Source: Neotamlana sargassicola (lineage in GTDB: Bacteria; Bacteroidota; Bacteroidia; Flavobacteriales; Flavobacteriaceae). Taken from it: DNA of 64,000 bases. This document shows, piece by piece, positions 1,199 through 55,316 of the stretch (the stretch's first letter is position 1; each line of letters begins with the position of its first letter). Where the stretch lies: assembly GCF_020523965.1 (NCBI RefSeq), contig NZ_JAJAPX010000001.1, positions 558,001-622,000 on the forward strand. Reading direction: 5' to 3'. Below the pieces are notes generated by a model. The model saw nothing but the letters and a program-made list of their open reading frames with translations. It was not told where the DNA came from and did no database searches. The position numbers and the translations under genes were made by a program.

Positions 1199-1900
1199 TT
1201 ATTTTTTATTCAACCATTCTTCTTGAGAAAGTGCGGTGTATTTTTTATCCATTCCGTAAGGATCTTTACCTCCTTTTAAATAGTTGCTAATCAATTTTAA
1301 GGAAAATGTATCCTTCATTTGTGTTGGTACTTCGTATCTATGATTTCCATGAAAATCATGACATTGGATACATGTTTCCCATTTTTCTTGAGCAATTAAA
1401 TCTTTATGAGATATATCCAATGGATCGCTTTCAACAGACAAATCTTGATGACAATTCATGCAATAATCAATTTTACCTAAAGTAACACGCTCCCCATGAT
1501 GCTCGGAATGACACGTTACACAAGTGGTTGCATCAATATTTTTAATAGCATCACTAAATCGTGGCTCTGAAAATCGATAAATTGGATGTCTGTCGTTTGG
1601 CCTATCATGACATTCTAAACAATTATTCGCAGTTACATCCTGTGTTCCAAAATCTACACCTTCTTCTCTAAAACCAAAAGCATGAGATGTATTTGACTGT
1701 ACTTGCTGAATTAAATTACCTTTAGCATCTGCATGACAAGCAAAACACGAAAGCTCTTCATGTCCTGTATTCATCGGACCAACAGAAACATACTCCTCAT
1801 TAGATTCCAAGGAAAGCAAAACGAATACTAAAGCCCCAACAACTAAACCTATTATCCCACCTATAACTTGCCTTGTTCTTAATGGACTTATACTAAACAT
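1199..1900 (-). CDS. Membrane-anchored pentaheme c-type cytochrome
   Basis: The protein has 233 residues with an N-terminal membrane segment (about 11-31) and a periplasmic domain with five CxxCH heme sites starting at C52, C94, C127, C147 and C177, plus extra histidines (HSEHHGE, FHGNH) that can be distal ligands. The layout recalls cytochrome c3 and NapC/NirT-type electron carriers, though it is not a close match to NrfH, which has four hemes. It is the last gene of a five-gene minus-strand operon, 13 bp after the reductase gene. I infer a role as periplasmic electron carrier taking electrons from the membrane heme protein of the same operon. The final acceptor is unknown. No catalytic nitrite reductase (NrfA) lies next to it. 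Confidence 0.8.
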   Translation of the reverse strand: MFSISPLRTRQVIGGIIGLVVGALVFVLLSLESNEEYVSVGPMNTGHEELSCFACHADAKGNLIQQVQSNTSHAFGFREEGVDFGTQDVTANNCLECHDRPNDRHPIYRFSEPRFSDAIKNIDATTCVTCHSEHHGERVTLGKIDYCMNCHQDLSVESDPLDISHKDLIAQEKWETCIQCHDFHGNHRYEVPTQMKDTFSLKLISNYLKGGKDPYGMDKKYTALSQEEWLNKK

Positions 1901-1913
1901 GAACTATATTTTT

Positions 1914-2942
1914 TTAAAATTCTATAACAACTTTTTCACTTACCGGATACGATACACAGGTTAAAATATTTCCTGCTGAAACCTCTTCGTGAGGCATTAT
2001 ATGACCATCAATCATTTTTACCTCACCCTCAAGACATTTTGCCTTACAAGAAGAACACATACCCGACCTACATGAATAAGGTATTACCACATTATCAGAC
2101 AATGCCTGCTGAAGTATTGATTTATCGCCTCTTACCGACAAATTATATTCTTCCCCTTTTAGTTTTAAAATTACTTCGCTGAGTAAATTTTTTCCAGTTA
2201 ATTTAACTTTTGGAGCTTTAAATACCTCAAGTTTAATCTGCTCTCGAGTAATTCCATTTTCTTTCAAAATTTCTTTTACCTTTTCCATGTAACCATTTGG
2301 ACCACAAATCATGTATTCATAATTACCAAAATCCAAACTATATTTAGCAAAAACCTGATTTACGAGCCCATTGGTAATTTGCCCTTTATGGTACCCTTCA
2401 CCACAAGCATCGCAATTAGAAATAACATGCTCCGCATTAAATCTATCTTTATAATTAGCTTTTACTTGTTTAATTTCCTCATGAAAAATAATAGATTCTA
2501 AATTTCGATTTGCATAAATTAAAAGCACGCTAGAATCGTTCTCCTCGGTTAAAACAGATTTTATTATTGAAAACATAGGGGTTATGCCACTACCTCCAGC
2601 AAATAACACATACTGTTTTTTATTACTTTTTTCTGGAGATACACAAAAACTTCCTGCGGGATTATCTACATTTAATTTATCACCAACCTTTAAATTATCG
2701 TGAACATAATTTGAAACTAAGCCTCCTTCAACACGTTTTATAGTAATTTTTAAATCCTTATCGGTATAAGGGTTACTACAAAACGAGTAAGCTCGTTTAT
2801 GCACTTGCCCGCTTACTGGCACATGAATGGTTAGAAATTGTCCAGGTTTATAGCTTAATTTTTTAAAAAAATTTCCGTTTTTAAAAGCCACTGTTAAAGC
2901 ATCAGGCGTTTCTTTTATAAGTTCTTTTACTACTAATTTCAT
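1914..2942 (-). CDS. NAD(P)H oxidoreductase with FAD, NAD and C-terminal [2Fe-2S] ferredoxin domains
   Basis: The protein has 342 residues in the order FAD domain (about 1-100, RAYSFCSNP at 50-58), NAD(P) domain (about 108-235, FAGGSGITP at 114-122, CGPNGYM) and plant-type ferredoxin domain (about 255-342) with cluster ligands C292, C297, C300 and C330. This is the layout of PaaE and Hcr-type reductases. It has no membrane segment, so it acts in the cytoplasm. It lies 8 bp after the heme-b membrane protein gene and in the same operon as a single-domain globin. It could therefore feed electrons either into the membrane or to the globin. Family assignment is firm; the partner is inferred. Confidence 0.9.
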   Translation of the reverse strand: MKLVVKELIKETPDALTVAFKNGNFFKKLSYKPGQFLTIHVPVSGQVHKRAYSFCSNPYTDKDLKITIKRVEGGLVSNYVHDNLKVGDKLNVDNPAGSFCVSPEKSNKKQYVLFAGGSGITPMFSIIKSVLTEENDSSVLLIYANRNLESIIFHEEIKQVKANYKDRFNAEHVISNCDACGEGYHKGQITNGLVNQVFAKYSLDFGNYEYMICGPNGYMEKVKEILKENGITREQIKLEVFKAPKVKLTGKNLLSEVILKLKGEEYNLSVRGDKSILQQALSDNVVIPYSCRSGMCSSCKAKCLEGEVKMIDGHIMPHEEVSAGNILTCVSYPVSEKVVIEF

Positions 2943-2950
2943 TTGATAGC

Positions 2951-3427
2951 TTATTTATAATAAAACACCATTGTAACATGAAACACCATGAGTATGGTTA
3001 TTATTAAAGAAAGTGCAACATGCGCAATCATCCAGCCTTTAAAATAAATTTCTCCGCTTTTTTTAATTACATCTAAATTAAAATACCCCAATACGGTATT
3101 AGCAAGAAAAAAATATGACAACAAAAGCAAATACCCATAGCCTAATCTTATGCTGTGGGTATAAAACAACAACGGACTAATTGCACCAAGCCACTTATGA
3201 ATTTCTTGCATATTAACTGCAAACTTCTTTAAACTTTTCACCGTCCTAACCAACGACAACAACCATTGAAACAACACAAAAATAGCAAGAAGTAAACCCG
3301 TCCATCTTTTGTACATTTCTTGTTGCTGCAATTGAAACAACCATTCCCAATTGAGTTTAAAAAGAAACTGAACAACAAAAGCTAAGAAAAAAATAATACC
3401 TAAAATGCTTGTTTTACTTAATGCCAT
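2951..3427 (-). CDS. Four-helix membrane protein with ferric-reductase-like heme-b histidines
   Basis: The 158-residue protein has about four membrane segments (roughly 6-24, 42-62, 84-118 and 130-155). Four histidines lie in or next to them: H77 and H91, then H136 and H150. Each pair is separated by 13 residues, the spacing used to hold two stacked b hemes in ferric reductases, NADPH oxidases and MsrQ-like proteins. No soluble reductase domain is attached, but the adjacent gene encodes exactly such a domain. I read the two as a split ferric-reductase-like module moving electrons from cytoplasmic NAD(P)H across the inner membrane. Without a profile search the family name stays provisional. 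Confidence 0.65.
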   Translation of the reverse strand: MALSKTSILGIIFFLAFVVQFLFKLNWEWLFQLQQQEMYKRWTGLLLAIFVLFQWLLSLVRTVKSLKKFAVNMQEIHKWLGAISPLLFYTHSIRLGYGYLLLLSYFFLANTVLGYFNLDVIKKSGEIYFKGWMIAHVALSLIITILMVFHVTMVFYYK

Positions 3428-3482
3428 AAAAACAGATTGAAAAAATGAATTATTCCCGACGTGAACCGAATACTTAACTAAA

Positions 3483-4307
3483 TTATTTTTTGTTTAGTGA
3501 AACTAAGTGTTTCATAGTCTCGTAAGACGATAATTTTTTCACACTATCTAAAAACACTTCTGCAGTTGGCAAATATTTTCCATCTTGAGGCCACTTATTA
3601 CCAATTTCAGGCTTCTCACTTTCTTTAAAATGCTCAATTTCATCTAAGTATTCCATATAGATATCAACCGTACCTTTTGCATAAGAGTTTAAGACAGCGA
3701 TAGTTTCTTTATATGTAAGCGAATCTTTAGGGTATTGCCAAGTGGTTGCTCCCATAACATCTCCTAGTTTCCAATCGGACTTTGTTGTTTGTGGATGATC
3801 GTTATGACATGAAACACAAGCTCCGGCACTAGCCAAATCTGCAAACATAGCTGTGTGCAACTGTTGGGAATCGTCATAAAAAAACTGCGGCTCTTGGTTT
3901 TGTTTAATTTCTTCAAATAATTCCGCTTGCTTACCTTCAAATTTATTAGCTGCGTTAACAGGGTGATCTGACCCTAAGTACAAGCCTAAAGGCACAGGAC
4001 CGCGTTTAATACTTGTAGCTACACCACGCAAAAACAATGCTGGCAATGGCCCCGCTTCTACTTTGTCTTTTCGCCAATCTTCATCAAATTTCATACCTTG
4101 TAATTTACCTTTACCAACAATAGCTTTAGTATATAGTGTGCGGGTTACATCATTCTCTTTTGCCACCATTTCTAGAACTTCTTCAACAGAAAAAACATTT
4201 TCTTCACCTTGTAATTCTGCTTTTTCTTCAGGAACACCACCGCATGACACAATTATAAATGAAGCCAATAATGGATATATAAATTTTAGTTTATAAAAAG
4301 TTTTCAT
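3483..4307 (-). CDS. Lipoprotein monoheme cytochrome, DUF3365 (Tll0287-like)
   Basis: The 274-residue protein starts with a lipoprotein signal (hydrophobic 9-20, lipobox IIVSC with C22 as lipidated cysteine). A single CVSCH heme site lies at C164-H168, preceded by a helical alpha/beta domain with the G-P-L-P-A-LFLRG and VPLGLYLGSDHPVN segments and followed by DWKLGDVMGA, the pattern of DUF3365 heme sensor-like domains. It is predicted to be held in the periplasm by its lipid. It lies 30 bp after the globin gene in the same operon. DUF3365 domains often sense gas or redox state; here the lack of a signalling domain and the cytochrome neighbours favour electron transfer or ligand binding. Confidence 0.8.
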   Translation of the reverse strand: MKTFYKLKFIYPLLASFIIVSCGGVPEEKAELQGEENVFSVEEVLEMVAKENDVTRTLYTKAIVGKGKLQGMKFDEDWRKDKVEAGPLPALFLRGVATSIKRGPVPLGLYLGSDHPVNAANKFEGKQAELFEEIKQNQEPQFFYDDSQQLHTAMFADLASAGACVSCHNDHPQTTKSDWKLGDVMGATTWQYPKDSLTYKETIAVLNSYAKGTVDIYMEYLDEIEHFKESEKPEIGNKWPQDGKYLPTAEVFLDSVKKLSSYETMKHLVSLNKK

Positions 4308-4337
4308 TGTATTAATTTTTAGTTTATTGTATGCTTT

Positions 4338-4751
4338 TTAATAAGATGCTTTAATCATAACATCTGCCATAGTACCATAAACAGTTGCCCAAGCTTCTTT
4401 CACTTCCGATGTAAAATCATCCCCAAGTCCAACCTCTAATGTTCCCAGTAATGCTGCCCCAACAGTATCATAATGACTTTGCTCTACGTTATAATCAACA
4501 TGACGTTTACCCAAATCTTGTAGCACAGGAATTAACGCATCTAGATTACTTAACCCAGCAACGGCAGCACCTAACATGGTCATTAATTTATTTCCTTGCT
4601 GCTTCATAGCTTCACTGCTATTAGGAAATAACGGTTTTAACTTTGGGTCTAATTCAAAAAGTTTAGTATAAAAAATGTCAGCCGCTGTAGCTGCTATAGG
4701 TTTTACTTTCTCGAACGAGGTTTGCACAAGTGCTACTGTTTTTTGCTCCAT
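4338..4751 (-). CDS. Single-domain globin (Vitreoscilla/flavohemoglobin type)
   Basis: The 137-residue globin matches the heme domain of flavohemoglobins over its whole length. The B10 tyrosine (Y28 in FYTKLF), an E7-region glutamine (Q51/Q52) and the proximal histidine H84 in GKRHVDY are present. The reductase half of flavohemoglobin is absent, but an FAD/NAD/[2Fe-2S] reductase is encoded three genes downstream. Globins of this type dioxygenate nitric oxide to nitrate or bind oxygen. It is the first gene of the operon, and a near-perfect 28-bp palindrome lies 36-63 bp upstream of its start. A role in nitric oxide defence during nitrate or nitrite metabolism is inferred. Confidence 0.9.
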   Translation of the reverse strand: MEQKTVALVQTSFEKVKPIAATAADIFYTKLFELDPKLKPLFPNSSEAMKQQGNKLMTMLGAAVAGLSNLDALIPVLQDLGKRHVDYNVEQSHYDTVGAALLGTLEVGLGDDFTSEVKEAWATVYGTMADVMIKASY

Positions 4752-4786: not shown

Positions 4787-4814
4787 TTAAGCATAAATAC
4801 GTATTTATACTTAA
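4787..4814. promoter_or_regulatory. 28-bp palindromic operator upstream of globin-cytochrome operon
   Basis: The 28 bases form an inverted repeat with one mismatched pair around a central TACGTA; the inner 16 bases, ATAAATACGTATTTAT, are perfect. It reads as three half-sites one helical turn apart: TAAGTA (here TAAGCA), TACGTA and TACTTA, each separated by four bases. The same half-sites recur upstream of three other transcription units in this window (5789, 17104, 23369). The centre is 50 bp before the globin ATG. The binding protein is not shown by the sequence. Confidence 0.7.
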
Positions 4815-5778: not shown

Positions 5779-5804
5779 ATATCAAATATAAGTAATTATA
5801 CTTA
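5779..5804 (-). promoter_or_regulatory. Promoter and dyad of the FNR-like gene
   Basis: On the minus strand TAAGTATAATTACTTA is a 6-4-6 inverted repeat (5789-5804). It runs directly into TATATTTG, a perfect Bacteroidota -7 box (complement of about 5783-5790). No TTG -33 element is seen at the usual distance, so the dyad stands where RNA polymerase contacts would be. The arrangement is the same as at nirB, where TACTTA also overlaps TATATTTG. Strong as a shared pattern; the regulator is inferred. Confidence 0.6.
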
Positions 5805-12068: not shown

Positions 12069-13502
12069 TTAAATTTTACTAACTAAAGTCCTTTTTTCAA
12101 AACTCGATTTAGGAGCTTCACAAACCGAACATTGGTAAGTAACTGGTAAATTCTCGAAACTTGTATTTGGTGGAATGTCTTGTGTAACATCTCCATAAAT
12201 TTTGTTATACACCGTTAAACATTCACTACATTGAAATACAGCTTCCTCTAAAGTTTCAGAAATCACAATATCTGCTTCATCATCAACACTTTCATTTCCT
12301 AAATTTTCAAAGTATAACTTACTTAATTCCATTAACAATCCTGGGAGTTCAACCATGTCAACATCTTGAACATGCACAATGTACTCTCTTGTATTTGGAT
12401 CGAAATTTTTAGCATAAAGCAAATTATAGGTGTCACGAATTACAAAATCGCCTACAGATTCTGGTGCTTTATTTTTTTCGATTACTATCGAAGTGAAGTT
12501 ATATGTTGTACTATCGAAACTTGTAATTCCAAACGTTAAACCATAGGTACTAATATCGTTTTGATCGAAATTTGTAACTAAATATTTTTTAAGATTTAAA
12601 GCCTCTTTATCGTTTACTGGTAAATGCCAATTCATTTCTAACATCGAGTGACGAACATTAATTCCAAAACGGCCTAATAACTTTTCCCAGTCTAATTTCG
12701 ATTCCGATGGAATTCCTTTAACAATAAAGCTTTTCCATGGTGTTATAGATATTTTACCAACTTTATTTTCTGCACATATTTCGCACAGTGCTTTTAAAAA
12801 TTTTATATCGTAACGGTTATTTCTCCAATATAACCCTAACCAATATTTATCACCAATCCTATTCATGCCTTCGTAATAAGGAAACGGATAAAACGGCACT
12901 TCAAGCGGTTTATCTACTGTTCTGTTATTGGTATCGACAGCATCGCTAACCAACTGAAAAATGGTTTCCACATTCTCTGGATCTTCTTGAAGCACATTTT
13001 CTATGGCCAATTCAATTTTATCCATATCCCAACTATAAATTAACGCCGGATACATTTGTGTTTTTTTCCAACCAGGTAATCGAATAAACAAATACCAGTA
13101 ATCTTCATGCTCAGATGCAATAAAATTTACATTTCCGGTAAATAATGGTACCATTCGTTGCTTTGGGTCGGTAACATTTACGCGTAATTTTAGGTTATGC
13201 TTAAACTGCTCGATTATGTACAAATAGCGATCGCTTGTTAACCATGAAGTGCTCGGTAAAATATCGGCCGACACATAGGATGATGATAAATTTTCTACAC
13301 CATCGCGTTTTGGTTTTACAAATTTTATTTTATCGAATTGGCTAAATTTACTTTCATCGATTTCTTCGGGGAAAATAATATCCTGACGAGACCCAAAGGA
13401 AATAGCATCTAATCCTAAATATTCTGCAGCTTCGCATATATATTTTAATTCTCCTGGCGATAATACACCGCCGTTTATTCGTAATCTGTATGGCTCAATC
13501 AT
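12069..13502 (-). CDS. Sulfite/nitrite-reductase-like protein lacking siroheme cysteines, with rubredoxin tail
   Basis: The 477-residue protein starts like a ferredoxin-type nitrite or sulfite reductase (LRINGGVLSPGELKYICEAA) with a second half-domain near 240-300 (KISITPWKSFIVKGI). The cysteine pairs that hold [4Fe-4S]-siroheme are absent: apart from C23 and a pair in LCEICAE, the only clustered cysteines are in the C-terminal rubredoxin (C425, C428, C458, C461). It is thus unlikely to reduce nitrite itself. The ATG overlaps the TAA of the nitrate reductase gene (TAATG), so the two are coupled. I infer an electron-transfer or scaffold partner of nitrate reductase. The reductase-fold call is from motif reading only. 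Confidence 0.7.
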   Translation of the reverse strand: MIEPYRLRINGGVLSPGELKYICEAAEYLGLDAISFGSRQDIIFPEEIDESKFSQFDKIKFVKPKRDGVENLSSSYVSADILPSTSWLTSDRYLYIIEQFKHNLKLRVNVTDPKQRMVPLFTGNVNFIASEHEDYWYLFIRLPGWKKTQMYPALIYSWDMDKIELAIENVLQEDPENVETIFQLVSDAVDTNNRTVDKPLEVPFYPFPYYEGMNRIGDKYWLGLYWRNNRYDIKFLKALCEICAENKVGKISITPWKSFIVKGIPSESKLDWEKLLGRFGINVRHSMLEMNWHLPVNDKEALNLKKYLVTNFDQNDISTYGLTFGITSFDSTTYNFTSIVIEKNKAPESVGDFVIRDTYNLLYAKNFDPNTREYIVHVQDVDMVELPGLLMELSKLYFENLGNESVDDEADIVISETLEEAVFQCSECLTVYNKIYGDVTQDIPPNTSFENLPVTYQCSVCEAPKSSFEKRTLVSKI

Positions 13503-16500
13503 TACGCTAATACTTTAGAGTTATTAAGAATTTCTCGCACTTCGGTTTTACAACTACCACAGCCTAAACCGGCTCCAGTAGAATTACATAATTCGGTAAA
13601 ATCTACACACCCGCCACGAATCGCTTCTTCAATATTACCAACACCTACTTGACTACACGAACACACTAATTCCCCTTTTACTGGTTCTGTATTTGATGCG
13701 CCACGAAGTAAAGTATCTCGCTTTTCGGCCATTTCAATTTTACTTTCAATCATCGATTTAAACTCAGCAAATTCATTTTTATCTCCCATTAAAACCGCTC
13801 CAATAAGTAAATCGTCTTTTACTATACATTTTTTGTAGTAGCGTTTCTTTATATCGGTAAAAATAATTTCTTCGTAGCTATTGTCGTTCTCAGGCACTTT
13901 AATTTCTCCTATACTACACAAGTTTAAATCGTTGAATTTTAAAATATTCATAAGTACCGAACCGTGATACGACGACCCTAAATCGCCGGCAATATAATTG
14001 GCTAAAATATTAGCTTGCTCTTCGGCCGCCGAGGTAATTCCAAATAACTGATTGTTATATTCGGCAATTTCACCAATGGCAAAAATATCTGGATTACAAG
14101 ATTGTAAATGTTGATTTACCTTAACACCTCTTCCGCATAAAATACCATTTTCTCGAGCTATTTCAACATTTGGTATAGTTCCAATAGCATAAACAATGGC
14201 GTTTGCAGTTAAAAACTTACCACTTTTTAGGGTAATATTTAATTCACCTGTATCTTCATCGTCGAAAACCGTGCTTACTTCGTTATCAAAATAAATTTGA
14301 ATGCCACGTTCTTGCACATCAAGCGATAATAATTTACTCGAAATACTATCTAATTGGCGCTCCATTAATCGTGAAGCACGTTGGATAATAGTAATTTTAG
14401 CGTTTTTATGTTTCATGGCAGCAGCCAATTCTAAACCAAGTAAACCACCACCAACAATTACAACATGTTGCTCTTCTGGCGGCAAGCCTGTAGCATCGAG
14501 ATAAGCTTTAAACTCATCGGCATCTTGTTTGTTACGCATGGTAAAACGCCCTGGCAAATCTATTTGAACATCACGCGGCACAAAGGCACGACTACCTGTG
14601 GCCAAAATAAGTTTATCAAAATTATGCTTCTCGTTATTACTATCTATTACGTATTTTTCTTTCTGGTTTATTTCGACTATAAACGTTTCAGGATGCACGT
14701 TAATATCGAGTTTAGAAAGTTCTTGCTTCTTAATTTTAAGTAATTGCTCCCAACTTAATTCATCGGTTACATATTCGGGAAGCAGCACACGGTTATAAAA
14801 TAAATTAGGCTCTTTAGAAAATACGTGAATATCGTCCGCTTCATTTAATTCACGATAATTTTGCACAAACCTAAATGCCGCAGCACCTGCACCTACAATT
14901 ATAATTTTATCTTTTGGCTTTTTATATTTAGCGACCTTAACGCGGGTATATTTAAAATCGGGTTCTTTACTACTTGGATCTAAAACAGTGTGCGTTAAAT
15001 TATTAGCTCTATTTAGAGTGTTTTGCAACTGTTTTCCCCAGTGCATTGGTAAAAACACGACACCTTTAGCTATATTTTTGGTAACCTTTGCTCGCACACG
15101 AACCTCGCCATTTTCGCTAGTTATTTGTGTAATATCGCCTTCTTTTATATTATTTAAATAGGCATCTACAGGATTAATTTCTAATACAGGCTTAGGATAA
15201 TGCGTTTTTAATCGAGCTACTTTACCCGTTTTGGTCATGGTATGCCATTGGTCACGCACACGACCTGTAGTTAAAACCAAAGGAAAATCGCCATTAGGTT
15301 TTACAGCCGTATTTTCTACGGAAGTGGGCACGTTAAAAATCGCTTTTTTCGATGGGGTATAAAACACTTTATCTTCGAACAAACGCGGTGTTCCTGCATG
15401 CCTGTATTCTGGCACTGGCCACTGGAATGTACCTTCGGTTTTTAACCTGTCGTAATTAAGAAAAGACACATCAATATTGGTGCCTTTAGTCATGCTACAA
15501 TATTCATCGTATATTTCTTCGGCACTGTTATAATTAAATCCACGAAAGCCCATGCGTTGCGCAAAGTCGCAGAAAATTTCAACGTCTGGACGCGCTTCGC
15601 CTGGTGCTTGAATTTCTTTAGGCAAGTACGAAATTCTGCGTTCAGAATTCGTCATTGTTCCTTCTTTTTCCAACCATCCGGCCGCAGGAAGCAACAAATC
15701 GGCATACTCTGTTGTATCCGATTTATGAGATATATCTTGTACCACAACAAACTTAGCGTTTGCCATAGCTTTTTCTATTTTATGAGAATTTGGTAAACTA
15801 ACTGCTGGATTTGTGCATGCAATCCAAATGGCTTTTAATTCACCCGACTCTAAAGCATCGAACATTTGGGTAGCTGTTAGTCCTGGTTTAGGTGAAATAT
15901 CTTCAACACCCCAAAATTGAGCGACTTCGCGACGGTGTTCTGCATTTGCCAAATCTTTATGTACAGCCAACAAATTTGCCATACCGCCAACTTCACGCCC
16001 GCCCATGGCATTTGGCTGACCAGTTAATGAAAATGGACCTGCTCCCGGCTTACCAACATTTCCTGTAATTAGCGATAAGTTTAAGAGCGATACATTTTTA
16101 TCGGTTCCTACAACGCTTTGGTTAAGCCCCATTGCCCACATGCTAATAAAACCTTTTGAAAGCCCTATTACATCGGCAACCTTACGAATGCTTTTTTCGG
16201 GAACACCACAAAGTTTAGAAGCTTGTTTAACCGAAGTTTTAAAAATGAGTTCTTTATAAGCTGTAAAACCATCGGTGTAATTATTTATAAAATCTTCATC
16301 TATTAAACCGCGTTCGTATATACAACGTGCAATAGCATTGTAAAGAATAATATCGGTTCCTGGAATAAGTTGTAAATGAATATCTGCAAAATTTGCCGAA
16401 TCGGTTTTTCGCGGATCGACAACAATAATTTTAACGTTCGGGTTTTCTTCTTTATGTTTTTCAATCCTTCTGAATAAAATAGGATGGCACCAAGCTGGAT

Positions 16501-17023
16501 TTGCCCCAGTAATTAAAAAACAGTCTGCAAGCTCAATATCTTCGTACGAAATAGGAACACTATCTTCACCAAAAGTTTTTTTATAACCTACCACGGCAGA
16601 ACTCATACACAAACGAGAGTTTGTGTCGATATTATTGGTTCCCAAGAAGCCTTTTGTTAATTTATTTGCTATGTAATATTCTTCGGTTAAACTTTGTCCT
16701 GAAACGTAAAAAGCAACACTATCTGGACCATATTTTTTAATCATGGTTTTAAAAACACTAGCTGCTCTATCGAGTGCGTCGTCCCAACTTACGCGTTCTC
16801 TGGGATGAGAACGAGACCAACGCATTTCTGGATATAAAATTCTATCGGAAGTATCGTTAGCAACATAATGCAAATTCATACCTTTACTACAAAGCATACC
16901 TTTATTAACAGGATGATCTTTATCGCCCTCAACAAATACCTTATCGTTATTATCTTTTTTAACTACAATTCCGCAGCCAACACCGCAATAAGAACAGGTT
17001 GTTTTAATTTCATTTTTTAACAT
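13502..17023 (-). CDS. Assimilatory nitrate reductase fused to NAD(P)H reductase and [2Fe-2S] domains
   Basis: The 1173-residue protein combines three parts. Residues about 1-680 are a molybdopterin enzyme of the NasA/NarB type with N-terminal [4Fe-4S] ligands C10, C13, C17 and C45 and the C-terminal molydopterin-binding fold (TTGRVRDQWHTMT). Residues about 695-1100 are a NirB-like FAD/NAD(P)H oxidoreductase (IIIVGAGAAA; VVIVGGGLLGLELA; AIGEIA). Residues about 1117-1173 are a bacterioferritin-ferredoxin-like [2Fe-2S] domain with C1121, C1123, C1155 and C1158. All parts needed to take electrons from NAD(P)H to nitrate are in one chain. Cytoplasmic; no Tat signal. The upstream region carries two dyads (17104-17142). 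Confidence 0.9.
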   Translation of the reverse strand: MLKNEIKTTCSYCGVGCGIVVKKDNNDKVFVEGDKDHPVNKGMLCSKGMNLHYVANDTSDRILYPEMRWSRSHPRERVSWDDALDRAASVFKTMIKKYGPDSVAFYVSGQSLTEEYYIANKLTKGFLGTNNIDTNSRLCMSSAVVGYKKTFGEDSVPISYEDIELADCFLITGANPAWCHPILFRRIEKHKEENPNVKIIVVDPRKTDSANFADIHLQLIPGTDIILYNAIARCIYERGLIDEDFINNYTDGFTAYKELIFKTSVKQASKLCGVPEKSIRKVADVIGLSKGFISMWAMGLNQSVVGTDKNVSLLNLSLITGNVGKPGAGPFSLTGQPNAMGGREVGGMANLLAVHKDLANAEHRREVAQFWGVEDISPKPGLTATQMFDALESGELKAIWIACTNPAVSLPNSHKIEKAMANAKFVVVQDISHKSDTTEYADLLLPAAGWLEKEGTMTNSERRISYLPKEIQAPGEARPDVEIFCDFAQRMGFRGFNYNSAEEIYDEYCSMTKGTNIDVSFLNYDRLKTEGTFQWPVPEYRHAGTPRLFEDKVFYTPSKKAIFNVPTSVENTAVKPNGDFPLVLTTGRVRDQWHTMTKTGKVARLKTHYPKPVLEINPVDAYLNNIKEGDITQITSENGEVRVRAKVTKNIAKGVVFLPMHWGKQLQNTLNRANNLTHTVLDPSSKEPDFKYTRVKVAKYKKPKDKIIIVGAGAAAFRFVQNYRELNEADDIHVFSKEPNLFYNRVLLPEYVTDELSWEQLLKIKKQELSKLDINVHPETFIVEINQKEKYVIDSNNEKHNFDKLILATGSRAFVPRDVQIDLPGRFTMRNKQDADEFKAYLDATGLPPEEQHVVIVGGGLLGLELAAAMKHKNAKITIIQRASRLMERQLDSISSKLLSLDVQERGIQIYFDNEVSTVFDDEDTGELNITLKSGKFLTANAIVYAIGTIPNVEIARENGILCGRGVKVNQHLQSCNPDIFAIGEIAEYNNQLFGITSAAEEQANILANYIAGDLGSSYHGSVLMNILKFNDLNLCSIGEIKVPENDNSYEEIIFTDIKKRYYKKCIVKDDLLIGAVLMGDKNEFAEFKSMIESKIEMAEKRDTLLRGASNTEPVKGELVCSCSQVGVGNIEEAIRGGCVDFTELCNSTGAGLGCGSCKTEVREILNNSKVLA

Positions 17024-17103: not shown

Positions 17104-17142
17104 TACGTATAAATACTTAATTTTCTAAGTACTTTATACGTA
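17104..17142. promoter_or_regulatory. Paired dyad operators upstream of the nitrate reductase operon
   Basis: TACGTA-N4-TACTTA (17104-17119) is followed six bases later by TAAGTA-N5-TACGTA (17126-17142). Together they form a long near-perfect inverted repeat around 17122. The half-sites match those before the globin, FNR-like and nirB genes. The block is 81-119 bp upstream of the start codon at 17023, farther than at the other genes. Confidence 0.65.
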
Positions 17143-20826: not shown

Positions 20827-23343
20827 TTATTTCCAAGGTTCTGGCATTTTTTGATCTCTCATTGGCACGAAAACAATGTTATCGTCTTCTTCTTTGCTAT
20901 TTACAAAATGATTAAAACGTTTCATCATTTCTGGATCGTTAACAGCTTGTGTCCATTCGCATTCAAACTTATTCACTAAGGTTTGCATTTCTTCTTCTAA
21001 ATCTTTTGCAATACCTAATTTATCTTCTATAATAACTTCTTTTAAATATTCTATACCGCCTTCTAGTCGTTCTTGCCATGCAGCAGTACGTTGTAACGGT
21101 TTTGCTGTACGCATGTACAACATTAAGTAACGATCTAAGTATTTAATTACGGTTTCGTTATCAATTTGCTCTGCAAATAACTCGGCATGTCTAGGTGTTG
21201 CACCACCGTTACCACCAACATAAAGATTCCAACCGCCCTCAACAGCAATTAAACCAAAATCTTTTCCGCGAGCTTCGGCACATTCACGAATACAACCAGA
21301 AACACCACCTTTAATTTTATGCGGTGCACGAATACCACGATAGCGGTTTTCTAGCTCTATACCAAAACTCACACTTTCGTCCATACCGTAACGACACCAA
21401 GTAGAACCTACACAGGTTTTTACAGTACGTAGTGATTTACCATAAGCATGACCACTCTCGAAACCATGCGCTATTAAATCTTTCCAAATTAATGGTAATT
21501 GATTTAAGGTTGCACCAAATAAATCGATACGAACACCACCCGTTACTTTTGTGTATAAATCGTATTTTTTAGCTATTTCGCCAAGTGCAATTAACTTATC
21601 CGGTGTAATTTCTCCACCAGGAACTCTAGGCACTACAGAATACGTTCCGTTTCGCTGAATATTGGCTAAAAATCTGTCGTTTGAATCTTGAATAGCATAT
21701 TCCTTATTCGCGGTATCGGCATGAATACTTGCCATTAACGATGCTACTACAGGCTTACACAGCTCGCAACCATGACCACCATTTCCGTGATTATCTAAAA
21801 CCTCGTTAAACGTTTGGTAACCTTTAACCTGGATAATTTTATATAAATCTTGACGGTTATAATCGAAATGCTCACAAATAGAATCTTTAACCTCAATACC
21901 TAAAGATTTTAAAGTTGCTTCGGTAATATCTTTAACCATTGGTTTACAACCACCACAACCAGTTCCTGCTTTTGTGCACGACACAACATCGGCTAAATCT
22001 TTAGCTTCACCACTTTCAATAGCGCCGCAAATTTGCCCTTTAGTTACACTTTCGCAGGAACAAACTTGTGCATCGTCTGGTAAATCCATAACATCGCCAA
22101 AGGCTGCAGCCCCATCGCTAGTTGGTAAAATTAATTGTGCTGGCTCTTCTGGAATAGCCATACTATTCATATACATTTGGTGTAACATATTATAATCGGC
22201 AGCATCGCCAACTAAAATTCCACCAAGAAGTGTTTTTCTATCTAAACTTACATTAATACGTTTATATAAAAACTTCGTTTTATCTTCATATATTATTGAA
22301 TGTCCTTTTGATGCTGGCATAAAAGGCTCTCCAAAACTCGCTACATCTACACCAATTAATTTCAGTTTTGTAGACATATCAATTTCTTCTGGCATTTCAG
22401 CACTTACATCTCCTAAAATTTGTTTAACCGCAATATCTGCCATATCGTAACCAGGAGCTACCAAACCATAAATCATTTGGTTTAACAAGGCTACCTCACC
22501 AATGGCATAAATATTCTCGTCGGTGGTTTGCATTTTGTTATTAACCACAATACCGCCACGAACACCAACTTCTAAATCGCATGTTTTAGCGAGTTCATCA
22601 CGCGGGCGAATACCTGCCGAAACAATTAGCATATCAACATTTAAAACATCGTCTTCACCAAACTCCATTCCAACAATGGCATCGTCTCCTAAAATTTGAT
22701 TTGTTGCTTTACTTAAATGAATATTTAAACCAATAGATTCTAATTTTAACTGAAGCACTTTACTACTTCTAGAATCTAATTGTCTTGGCATTAGTTTAGG
22801 TGCAAACTCTACAATATGTGGTTCTAAGCCCATATCTAAAACAGCTTTACCAGCCTCTAAACCAAGTAAACCACCACCTAAAACAGCCGCTTTAGCATCT
22901 GGATTAGTCTTTTTTAAATCTGCAGCATAAGCTAGCATGCCTTCCAAATCTTCAATAGTTCTGTAAACAAAAACCCCTTTTTTCTCAACACCTTTAATTG
23001 GCGGCACAAAAGGTGAAGATCCTGTAGCAAGAATTAAATAATCGTAAGTAAAGGTTCTATCTTTTGATGTGGTAATTGTTTTAGAATCACGATGTATATC
23101 TACCACACGCTCGTTTGTAACCAAATCGATTCCATTTTCTACATACCATTCAGCAGGAGCCATTTCTAATGCTTTGGCGTCTTGATTTTCAAAATATTCA
23201 CTTAAATGAACACGATCGTAAGCCGGACGAGGCTCTTCGCCAAAAACAGTTAATTTAAAAGCACTATCGGTTGATTGCTGTACAAATTTTTCACAAAATT
23301 TATAACCTACCATTCCATTACCTACTACTATGATTTTTTTCAT
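20827..23343 (-). CDS. nirB: NAD(P)H nitrite reductase large subunit NirB
   Basis: The 838-residue protein has an FAD/NAD(P)H domain (VVGNGMVGYKF; LGGGLLGLEAG; AIGEVA), a BFD-like [2Fe-2S] domain (CSCESV ... GTGCGGCKPM), a second cysteine pair (HGCELCKP) and the nitrite/sulfite reductase core. Siroheme-[4Fe-4S] ligands are C644, C650, C684 and C688. It reduces nitrite to ammonium in the cytoplasm. It heads a five-gene operon with nirD, DUF4202 and the NarX/NarL-like pair. A promoter with TATATTTG and the recurring dyad lies just upstream. Confidence 0.95.
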   Translation of the reverse strand: MKKIIVVGNGMVGYKFCEKFVQQSTDSAFKLTVFGEEPRPAYDRVHLSEYFENQDAKALEMAPAEWYVENGIDLVTNERVVDIHRDSKTITTSKDRTFTYDYLILATGSSPFVPPIKGVEKKGVFVYRTIEDLEGMLAYAADLKKTNPDAKAAVLGGGLLGLEAGKAVLDMGLEPHIVEFAPKLMPRQLDSRSSKVLQLKLESIGLNIHLSKATNQILGDDAIVGMEFGEDDVLNVDMLIVSAGIRPRDELAKTCDLEVGVRGGIVVNNKMQTTDENIYAIGEVALLNQMIYGLVAPGYDMADIAVKQILGDVSAEMPEEIDMSTKLKLIGVDVASFGEPFMPASKGHSIIYEDKTKFLYKRINVSLDRKTLLGGILVGDAADYNMLHQMYMNSMAIPEEPAQLILPTSDGAAAFGDVMDLPDDAQVCSCESVTKGQICGAIESGEAKDLADVVSCTKAGTGCGGCKPMVKDITEATLKSLGIEVKDSICEHFDYNRQDLYKIIQVKGYQTFNEVLDNHGNGGHGCELCKPVVASLMASIHADTANKEYAIQDSNDRFLANIQRNGTYSVVPRVPGGEITPDKLIALGEIAKKYDLYTKVTGGVRIDLFGATLNQLPLIWKDLIAHGFESGHAYGKSLRTVKTCVGSTWCRYGMDESVSFGIELENRYRGIRAPHKIKGGVSGCIRECAEARGKDFGLIAVEGGWNLYVGGNGGATPRHAELFAEQIDNETVIKYLDRYLMLYMRTAKPLQRTAAWQERLEGGIEYLKEVIIEDKLGIAKDLEEEMQTLVNKFECEWTQAVNDPEMMKRFNHFVNSKEEDDNIVFVPMRDQKMPEPWK

Positions 23344-23362: not shown

Positions 23363-23395
23363 CAAATATAAGTAAAAACTACGTAATTATACTTA
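23363..23395 (-). promoter_or_regulatory. nirB promoter with overlapping dyad
   Basis: Read on the minus strand, TAAGTA-N4-TACGTA-N5-TACTTA (23395-23369) runs into TATATTTG (23370-23363), a perfect Bacteroidota -7 box 20 bp before the nirB ATG. The three half-sites are spaced about one helical turn apart like those at 4787. The dyad replaces a normal TTG -33 element, so it could bind an activator or, as it overlaps the -7 box, a repressor. Confidence 0.65.
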
Positions 23396-30375: not shown

Positions 30376-30618
30376 ATGAAAAATAAAAAATTACCTAACA
30401 GTATCGCAACCTTAAGTGTTATTTTTGCACTTAGTTTAACAACCAATGTTTTTGCCGGCAGTTCCGGTAATTGGATGGATAAATGGTACCAATACCAATC
30501 TCAAAATAATAGTGGGCATACCTCTGTACCAATTGATGGTGGTATGGGAATATTAGTATTAGGAGCTGCTGCTTTTGGCGCGTACAAATTAAGAGGCGAA
30601 AAAAATGCTAAACATTAA
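30376..30618 (+). CDS. Small exosortase substrate 1 (VPIDGG sorting signal)
   Basis: The 80-residue protein has a signal peptide (1-27, ending NVFA), a short polar Tyr/Gln/Ser/Asn-rich body (about 28-50) and a C-terminal tripartite signal: VPIDGG (51-56), a small-residue membrane segment GILVLGAAAFGAYKL and a basic tail. This is the layout of PEP-CTERM/PID-CTERM-type proteins cut and anchored by exosortases. The mature product would be only about 25 residues. The gene overlaps the exosortase gene by 14 bp. Compare the second substrate at 31764: same signal, different body. Confidence 0.8.
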   Translation: MKNKKLPNSIATLSVIFALSLTTNVFAGSSGNWMDKWYQYQSQNNSGHTSVPIDGGMGILVLGAAAFGAYKLRGEKNAKH

Positions 30619-31204
30619 AGACTCACTAAAAAGCATACCCAAACCTGTAAGGCTTTTCTTAGGAAAAGCCTTATTGTTTTTTGTAGTTTGGAAACTCCTT
30701 TACGGTTTCTATTTTTCTCATACTAAAACCTTAGACTATCCGCTAACAAAACATGTTGGCGAAGCCTCAACGTATTTATTAAACAACTTTAGTCCTATGA
30801 GCGGCTTTACCGTAGAGCGTAATGTAGGGACGTTTTATATTGGAGACGAATTGGTAGAAGGGGGTATCTCTTCTCAAATTTTTCATAATGGATATTTGGT
30901 ATTGCATATTGCCGATAATTGTAATGGTCTAGAACTAATGATATTATTTATTGGTTTTATAATATGCATGCCTTCAAGTTTAAAGAGAAAACTTTTATAC
31001 ATTGTTCTAGGAATACTAATTATTGACTTTGTTAATATACTACGATGTATGGGCTTAATTTATCTTCGAGAATATTATCATGCGTATTTTGATTTCGCCC
31101 ACCACTACTTATTCAAAGCCGTTGTTTATACTTGTACATTTTTAATTTGGATGTACTTTTCTAGAAAAATTAGTTTTAAAAATGAAAATTTACAAATCGG
31201 ATAA
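30605..31204 (+). CDS. Archaeosortase/exosortase family transpeptidase
   Basis: The 199-residue membrane protein carries the exosortase triad: C106 in ADNCNGLELM, R147 in NILRC and H166/H167 in AHHYLF, each at the start or end of membrane helices. Family members cut C-terminal sorting signals of secreted proteins and transfer them to another molecule. It overlaps the substrate gene upstream by 14 bp and the partner gene downstream by 23 bp, so the three are translated together. At 199 residues it is the short, single-domain type. The exact subfamily (Xrt letter) was not determined. Confidence 0.88.
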   Translation: MLNIKDSLKSIPKPVRLFLGKALLFFVVWKLLYGFYFSHTKTLDYPLTKHVGEASTYLLNNFSPMSGFTVERNVGTFYIGDELVEGGISSQIFHNGYLVLHIADNCNGLELMILFIGFIICMPSSLKRKLLYIVLGILIIDFVNILRCMGLIYLREYYHAYFDFAHHYLFKAVVYTCTFLIWMYFSRKISFKNENLQIG

Positions 31205-55261: not shown

Positions 55262-55316
55262 ACAAATATAAAAAAAATAGTTAAAAACAGTTAATTATAC
55301 ATACTTAATACTGGCC

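Follow-up and report, generated by a model that had tools for sequence, protein, structure and literature searches.

What is the function of five closely spaced minus-strand genes at positions 1199–4751 of a 64-kb stretch of Neotamlana sargassicola DNA (here, the window)? They encode a globin, a haem lipoprotein, a 158-aa membrane protein (TMb hereafter), an NAD(P)H-dependent reductase and a pentahaem c-type cytochrome, and a first-pass annotation had proposed that they form a ferric-reductase-like transmembrane electron conduit split over separate chains. The conduit is supported by remote homology of TMb to the ferric-reductase domain (FRD), by invariant histidines, by gene co-occurrence and by a natural fusion of the reductase to the pentahaem cytochrome. 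The reading we prefer is that this is a split ferric-reductase-type conduit of the nitrate-assimilation regulon that, together with the globin, would handle nitric oxide (NO) on both sides of the membrane, and we give it a probability of slightly under one half (about 0.48).

The five open reading frames (ORFs) lie where they had been placed initially, all on the minus strand, with gaps of 13, 8, 55 and 30 bp from the pentahaem gene to the globin gene. The pentahaem protein (1199–1900) has an N-terminal membrane anchor, five CXXCH motifs and conserved H47, H105, H134, H165, H184 and H187. The reductase (1914–2942) is PaaE/Hcr-like, with FAD, NAD(P)H and plant-type [2Fe-2S] domains (FAD_binding_6, NAD_binding_1 and Fer2 in Pfam), and TMb (2951–3427) has five long helices and two H-x13-H pairs. 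The lipoprotein (3483–4307) is Tll0287-like (sCache_heme), with one c haem and no conserved spare Cys for an axial ligand. The globin (4338–4751) is a single-domain protein of the flavohaemoglobin type matching Pfam Globin, and its Y28, Q52, H84 and Y94, which we take to be B10 Tyr, E7 Gln, F8 His and G5 Tyr, were kept in 78/78 sequences. Its best PDB matches were bacterial globins of 131–139 residues named hemoglobin-like flavoprotein. The identities first given to the globin, reductase and pentahaem cytochrome were all matched by Pfam domains and the five CXXCH motifs. Among the five proteins, Pfam gave no FMN-binding or ApbE match and no signalling domain.

The gene set is conserved. TMb relatives were found in 22 of the 249 sampled Flavobacteriaceae genomes, and all five genes were present in identical order in 21 of the 22 TMb loci. 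When named genomes were scanned with the lipoprotein profile, 203 relatives came up; the 80 best of these were taken as loci and the remaining 123 left out. Among those 80, the closest named lipoprotein relatives came from two Tamlana species (96–97% identity to the window lipoprotein), and the genera holding relatives of the operon include Maribacter, Zobellia, Algibacter, Polaribacter and Aquimarina, among others. The lipoprotein, TMb, reductase and pentahaem genes were together in 80/80 loci, and all five genes, globin included, were adjacent and in order in 74/80, with a globin match in 77/80. Two loci (L081 and L086) contain the four redox genes without a globin match, three (L089, L090 and L092) have globins nearby on the other strand, and in L084 the contig begins inside the lipoprotein gene, cutting off the globin side. 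The genes therefore do co-occur, as the proposal of a single system supposes. In Aquimarina (L089:14305–15183), a 292-aa protein made up of two tandem globin domains is found beside the globin-less operon copy, and two globin matches are also present at L090 and L092. A phylum-wide search for TMb gave hits in 6/395 genomes, full-length in the window's own and partial (30–51 residues) in the other five, and a class-wide search with the pentahaem profile found 1/325 genomes, again the window's own. These two samples caught none of the other known positive genomes and are thus mainly informative on other families, and within them there was no sign of the operon outside the Flavobacteriaceae.

The membrane protein is central to the argument. 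The two H-x13-H pairs, H77/H91 and H136/H150, were read from the sequence as first reported, and the four histidines were invariant in 22/22 sequences of the sampled set and 81/81 of a larger alignment, so homologues do keep them. An AlphaFold2 (AF2) model, built on a shallow alignment with a predicted local distance difference test score (pLDDT) of 86, has long helices at residues 5–22, 37–62, 64–91, 99–115 and 126–156 and two short ones, and the four histidines fall in helices 3 and 5 (81/81). The mean number of K+R per loop (2.48, 5.05, 0.11 and 2.3 for loops 1 to 4) fits an N-in, C-out topology under the positive-inside pattern, with loop 1 less clear. With that topology, H77 and H136 would be near the cytosol and H91 and H150 near the periplasm, which is the arrangement found in FRD proteins (PMC3591440).

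Homology searches point to TMb being a probable, distant FRD relative. Of 50 TMb members, 46 matched PF01794 (Ferric_reduct) with E values of 1 or lower, the best being 4e-5. For profile-profile comparison, 20 of the 22 FRD proteins extracted from the phylum were used (L116 and L120 were dropped as the wrong frame had been read), with subsets chosen by eye after the sequences had been inspected. The TMb profile matched 15 four-His FRD sequences at E 7.8e-5 (probability 61%) and eight NOX-like proteins at E 3.5e-4 (37%), all four histidines being in register in the printed alignment of the latter. As controls, reversed and shuffled TMb profiles reached no better than 0.08 with these two sets and no better than 0.05 over all sets. 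Five sequences that we grouped as MsrQ-like gave no match (E 0.16), and PDB sequence searches with the TMb sequence and the TMb profile found no match. Several results speak against the assignment. The window TMb itself is sub-threshold for Ferric_reduct (E 0.025, 15.1 bits, cut-off 28), while the other two profile matches anticipated by the first-pass annotation, to a c3/c7-type multihaem cytochrome and to DUF3365, were both found. DUF1529 was also matched by 21/50 TMb members (best 0.0014) and DUF4405 by the TMb profile at E 0.0035, while the values for all 20 FRD proteins and for seven long FRD proteins alone were only 0.0058 and 0.08. A Foldseek search of the PDB and viral libraries with the AF2 model gave no match with an E value of 0.001 or lower, and no NOX, STEAP or ferric reductase was present among the best 50 of its 98 rows (best E 0.46).

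The reductase and the pentahaem cytochrome are also well conserved. The iron-sulphur cysteines of the reductase are invariant in 81/81 sequences, and the five CXXCH motifs and six further histidines of the pentahaem protein, a c3/c7-type multihaem cytochrome by Pfam, are kept in 80–81 of 81 (L095 is cut). With these ligands, every one of the five haems could be bis-His, which makes electron transfer a more likely role for this protein than catalysis. An AF2 model of the pentahaem protein was poor (pLDDT 53) and was not used. In one genome (G229, L151:10214–11929), a single 571-aa chain consists of the reductase, a hydrophobic membrane stretch and then the pentahaem cytochrome, and the fused gene is followed by the lipoprotein and TMb genes. 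This locus is the extended form of L022, the sole one of the 22 without the standard five-gene order, and no globin was found among the ORFs listed there. Through the fusion, reductase and cytochrome are joined across the membrane, and its occurrence without a globin suggests that the constant partner of the reductase is the conduit and that the globin is optional.

This bears on a suggestion made in the first-pass annotation, that the reductase may also reduce the globin and the two form a split flavohaemoglobin. Taken as a rival to the conduit, this would mean that the reductase mainly reduces the cytosolic globin, with the cytochromes as an adjunct. Globin and FAD/NAD reductase are indeed encoded by separate genes, unlike in the single chain of Hmp, and each matches one part of the Hmp model; the globin directly precedes the other four genes in 74/80 loci with its four key residues invariant, and in Bradyrhizobium the FAD oxidoreductase Flp is proposed to reduce the single-domain globin Bjgb (PMC4724949). 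However, the redox genes remain side by side at loci with a detached globin or none found (L081, L086, L089, L090, L092 and L151), and in L151 the reductase is fused to the cytochrome instead. With the globin off the operon in 5/80 loci and none seen at the fusion, the split flavohaemoglobin was not supported and we consider it unlikely as the main role, though the reductase may still reduce the globin. No match over the Hmp cut-off was found in the window genome, which is 99.7% complete, and a full-length Hmp was over cut-off in only one of 80 sampled Flavobacteriaceae genomes, too few for a test of complementarity as an alternative NO system.

The lipoprotein had been described initially as a monohaem cytochrome. 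It is a lipoprotein, as stated, with one CXXCH following a lipobox-like Cys, but belongs with the Tll0287-like (sCache_heme) proteins rather than with ordinary cytochromes c. The window protein scored 32.7 bits against PF11845 (cut-off 24.1), and 12/12 aligned lipoproteins matched this family at E up to 0.01. PDB searches with the lipoprotein profile or sequence gave weak, chance-like matches (best E 0.5 and 0.86). The CXXCH is invariant in 81/81 sequences, with C164 and C167 in 81/81 and the lipobox C22 in 80/81. As 67/81 have exactly these three cysteines, the Cys that serves as axial haem ligand in Tll0287 appears to be missing from the family; a fourth Cys is present in 13/81. Tight NO binding was found for one sCache_heme protein that lacks the axial Cys and carries a signalling part (PMC12889525, a 2026 preprint), and by analogy an open ligand site in the lipoprotein is suggestive of an NO site, though only that.

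This NO binding also speaks for the idea that the five genes make up a redox or NO sensing module, in which the lipoprotein would signal NO or redox state with its haem held in the reduced form by the other proteins, and the lack of a conserved spare Cys would suit such a sensor. However, the operon encodes no signalling domain detectable by Pfam and stand-alone sCache_heme domains have been assigned redox roles (PMC12889525), making a sensor very unlikely in our view.

Taken as a conduit, the proteins suggest a simple path. NAD(P)H would be oxidized by the FAD/[2Fe-2S] reductase in the cytosol, and the electrons would cross the inner membrane via two stacked b haems in TMb, held by H77/H136 on the cytosolic side and H91/H150 on the periplasmic side. 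They would then pass to the membrane-anchored pentahaem cytochrome and finally to the haem of the Tll0287-like lipoprotein. On the ligand conservation and the gene associations, we regard this electron line as likely.

Evidence for the nitrate connection comes from a palindrome, TAAGTA-N4-TACTTA, that recurs upstream of the operon and of genes around it. In the window, a copy with one mismatch, TACGTA-N4-TACTTA (4798–4813), lies about 47 bp before the globin gene. It is followed by a gene on the minus strand for an FNR/CRP-type regulator with FNR-like cysteines C19, C22, C27 and C120 (5000–5743) and by a perfect palindrome (5789–5804) between the regulator gene and moeA. Copies with one mismatch precede the gene for a NasC-type enzyme (17104–17119) and nirB (23380–23395), and there is a further one-mismatch copy at 55292–55307. 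Sites with at most one mismatch thus number five in the window against 0.62 expected. Across the whole genome there are three perfect palindromes, compared with one for the pattern read backwards, and these precede a gene for an NMT1-like substrate-binding protein that we read as NrtA-like, crp/moeA, and a NarK-family transporter gene (302 bits, cut-off 312). Contig C10 of this genome has palindromes at 526855 and 744390. Another palindrome, TTGAC-N4-GTCAA, was dropped, with 18 matches against 32 expected.

The palindrome is conserved among the loci. In the 300 nt upstream of the globin gene, it was perfect in 53 of 73 regions and had at most one mismatch in 60, with these 60 sites beginning 44–67 nt before the start; after shuffling, none of the 73 regions had a site better than two mismatches. 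By gene class, sites with at most one mismatch located 10–160 nt upstream were found across the 80 loci, as raw counts without a shuffled control, before nrtA (59/63), globin (63/81 placements, tandem and extra globins counted), crp (39/64) and narK (10/17). Lower counts were found for the response regulator (6/25), moeA (4/28), an alginate-export-type porin (3/52), a tetrapyrrole methylase (1/14) and the lipoprotein (1/79). There were none before TMb, the reductase or the pentahaem gene (0/80 each), napA (0/11) or nrfA (0/10), nor before the remaining molybdenum cofactor genes, nirD, the kinase and other genes queried. The palindrome appears to mark a nitrate regulon in the Flavobacteriaceae and may control expression of the operon. 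The FNR-type regulator may be the protein that binds it. In this regulator, C19, C22 and C27 are present in 65/65 sequences and C120 in 57/65, with His instead in seven. Its spacing differs slightly from that of FNR, being C-x2-C-x4-C compared with C-x2-C-x5-C in Escherichia coli FNR.

The genes of nitrate and nitrite reduction in the window are all on the minus strand. The NasC-type protein (13502–17023, 1173 aa) is a molybdopterin enzyme whose fused chain also includes a NirB-like FAD domain and a BFD [2Fe-2S] domain. Its NCBIfam scores for NasC (539, cut-off 1100) and formate dehydrogenase (Fdh-alpha; 595, cut-off 666) are both too low, so its name rests on the NirB-like half and on its neighbours. 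Directly downstream is a gene (12069–13502) for a protein with NIR_SIR ferredoxin-like domains and a C-terminal rubredoxin, which had no NCBIfam match at 1e-10, and the nitrite reductase gene nirB is at 20827–23343. The window also encodes a short exosortase-family (EpsH) membrane protein at 30605–31204.

To compare genomes, the 22 with TMb were set beside 58 of the 227 without, the latter picked at roughly even steps of handle number before any co-occurrence result. NirB was over cut-off in 22/22 genomes with TMb and 8/58 without (Fisher p 2e-13, without kinship correction), and the same 30 NirB genomes hold a frame of 1173–1191 residues, below the NapA cut-off, that is the NasC-type enzyme. 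With the palindrome, this makes it highly probable that the operon is tied to nitrate assimilation.

The same sample allowed us to consider whether the conduit donates electrons to a periplasmic nitrate or nitrite reductase. NapA was over cut-off in 14/22 TMb genomes against 7/58, and NrfA was found in 14/22 against 6/58; within the 30 NirB genomes, the TMb carriers remained ahead for NrfA (14/22 against 1/8, p 0.035) and NapA (14/22 against 2/8, p 0.10), and nap or nrf genes adjoin the operon in L025 and L026. For NirK the figures were 4/22 and 13/58. However, neither NapA nor NrfA was found in five of the 22 TMb genomes, which already excludes a general role of this kind. The window genome is one of the five. 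In it, NapA did not pass the cut-off (what matched was the NasC-type gene), and the searches for NrfA and NirK gave nothing at E up to 1e-20; the conduit therefore cannot be feeding any of the three in this organism. The palindrome is likewise absent before napA and nrfA, and in L025 a DsrO/DsrP-like pair and additional cytochromes accompany the nap genes. Donation to NapA or NrfA is the least probable of the explanations weighed. Besides NapA and the DsrO/DsrP-like pair, the L025 nap cluster (L025:2251–8448) encodes two multihaem cytochromes, one of them NapB-like.

Within a nitrate-uptake and assimilation regulon, probably under the FNR-type regulator, the purpose of the operon may be the removal of NO or related nitrosative species arising from nitrate and nitrite reduction. 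The globin would act in the cytosol and the conduit would feed electrons to an NO-reactive haem outside the inner membrane. We rank this purpose first because in the Bradyrhizobium nas operon the single-domain globin Bjgb and the FAD oxidoreductase Flp protect against NO, and the NasC of that organism can generate NO (PMC4724949). In Sinorhizobium, the assimilatory enzymes made only an indirect contribution to NO (PMC6616083).

A conduit of this type could instead serve iron supply, reducing Fe(III) beyond the inner membrane for nitrate and nitrite reductases that are rich in iron. The remote FRD homology of TMb would fit such a ferric reductase, and the regulon enzymes carry Fe-S domains, with sirohaem in NirB. 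This leaves the globin and the Tll0287-like protein unexplained, and we find it distinctly unlikely.

A number of observations weigh against the preferred reading, a conduit that handles NO with the globin. The globin is missing or detached in the five loci noted above and at L151, and eight of the 30 NirB genomes sampled do not have TMb. The palindrome with at most one mismatch precedes nasC in 6/18 and nirB in 3/17 cases, a minority of loci, and at two mismatches the window has 14 sites against 11 expected, which is no excess. The operon lipoprotein has the stand-alone architecture, the class to which redox roles were assigned, and in one stand-alone sCache_heme protein NO release was fast whether the Cys was present or changed to Ala (PMC12889525), so that losing this Cys is not enough to create an NO site. 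A bolder form of the preferred reading would have the lipoprotein as an enzyme, a periplasmic NO reductase or dioxygenase, and not a sensor. It would then be part of a membrane-spanning, NAD(P)H-driven NO-handling complex new to the literature and wired into nitrate assimilation, with an outer arm of TMb, the pentahaem cytochrome and the haem-Cache lipoprotein and the globin as inner arm. We think this fairly unlikely.

A literature search that did not extend to supplements or to most subscription papers found no description of the operon gene set. The combination of a split FRD protein with a flavin reductase is already known from MsrQ/Fre of E. coli, in which a membrane haem b protein (MsrQ, or YedZ) and a separate cytosolic flavin reductase supply a periplasmic acceptor (PMC5676040). 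TMb differs in having all four canonical histidines, whereas YedZ has three (PMC3591440). The first is replaced by Arg in MsrQ/YedZ and present in 81/81 TMb sequences. The operon also differs in the five long helices of TMb, a reductase containing [2Fe-2S] and c-type cytochromes, and none of its five genes encodes an MsrP partner. Bacterial NOX and long FRD proteins share the four histidines in two pairs and the FAD/NAD dehydrogenase logic, but here the dehydrogenase is in a separate chain, TMb has no sixth helix, and the pentahaem and sCache_heme proteins are additional. The Bradyrhizobium narK-bjgb-flp-nasC operon likewise combines a single-domain globin with an FAD NAD(P)H oxidoreductase in a nitrate-assimilation system and gives protection from NO, but no membrane haem conduit or c-type cytochromes are described for it in the accessible text (PMC4724949). 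The operon lipoprotein shares PF11845 and an invariant CXXCH with Tll0287/DUF3365 proteins and differs in lying inside a redox operon, in being a lipoprotein, and in having no conserved Cys for axial ligation. MsrQ-like and NapH-like flavinylated conduits also send cytosolic electrons outward, by way of membrane proteins with b haem or Fe-S (PMC8238504). The operon, without an FMN-binding or ApbE match, has a multihaem c-type cytochrome instead.

TMb would represent the NOX/ferric-reductase core in minimal form and as a gene of its own, and with the L151 fusion the reductase-cytochrome partnership can be tested directly. Nitrate assimilation is usually viewed as cytosolic, and the regulon in these Flavobacteriaceae seems to include a dedicated electron line from NAD(P)H to the periplasm. 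If the NO-handling purpose is correct, stand-alone haem-Cache proteins would gain a function, and the use of nitrate by these bacteria would be connected with NO chemistry beyond the inner membrane.

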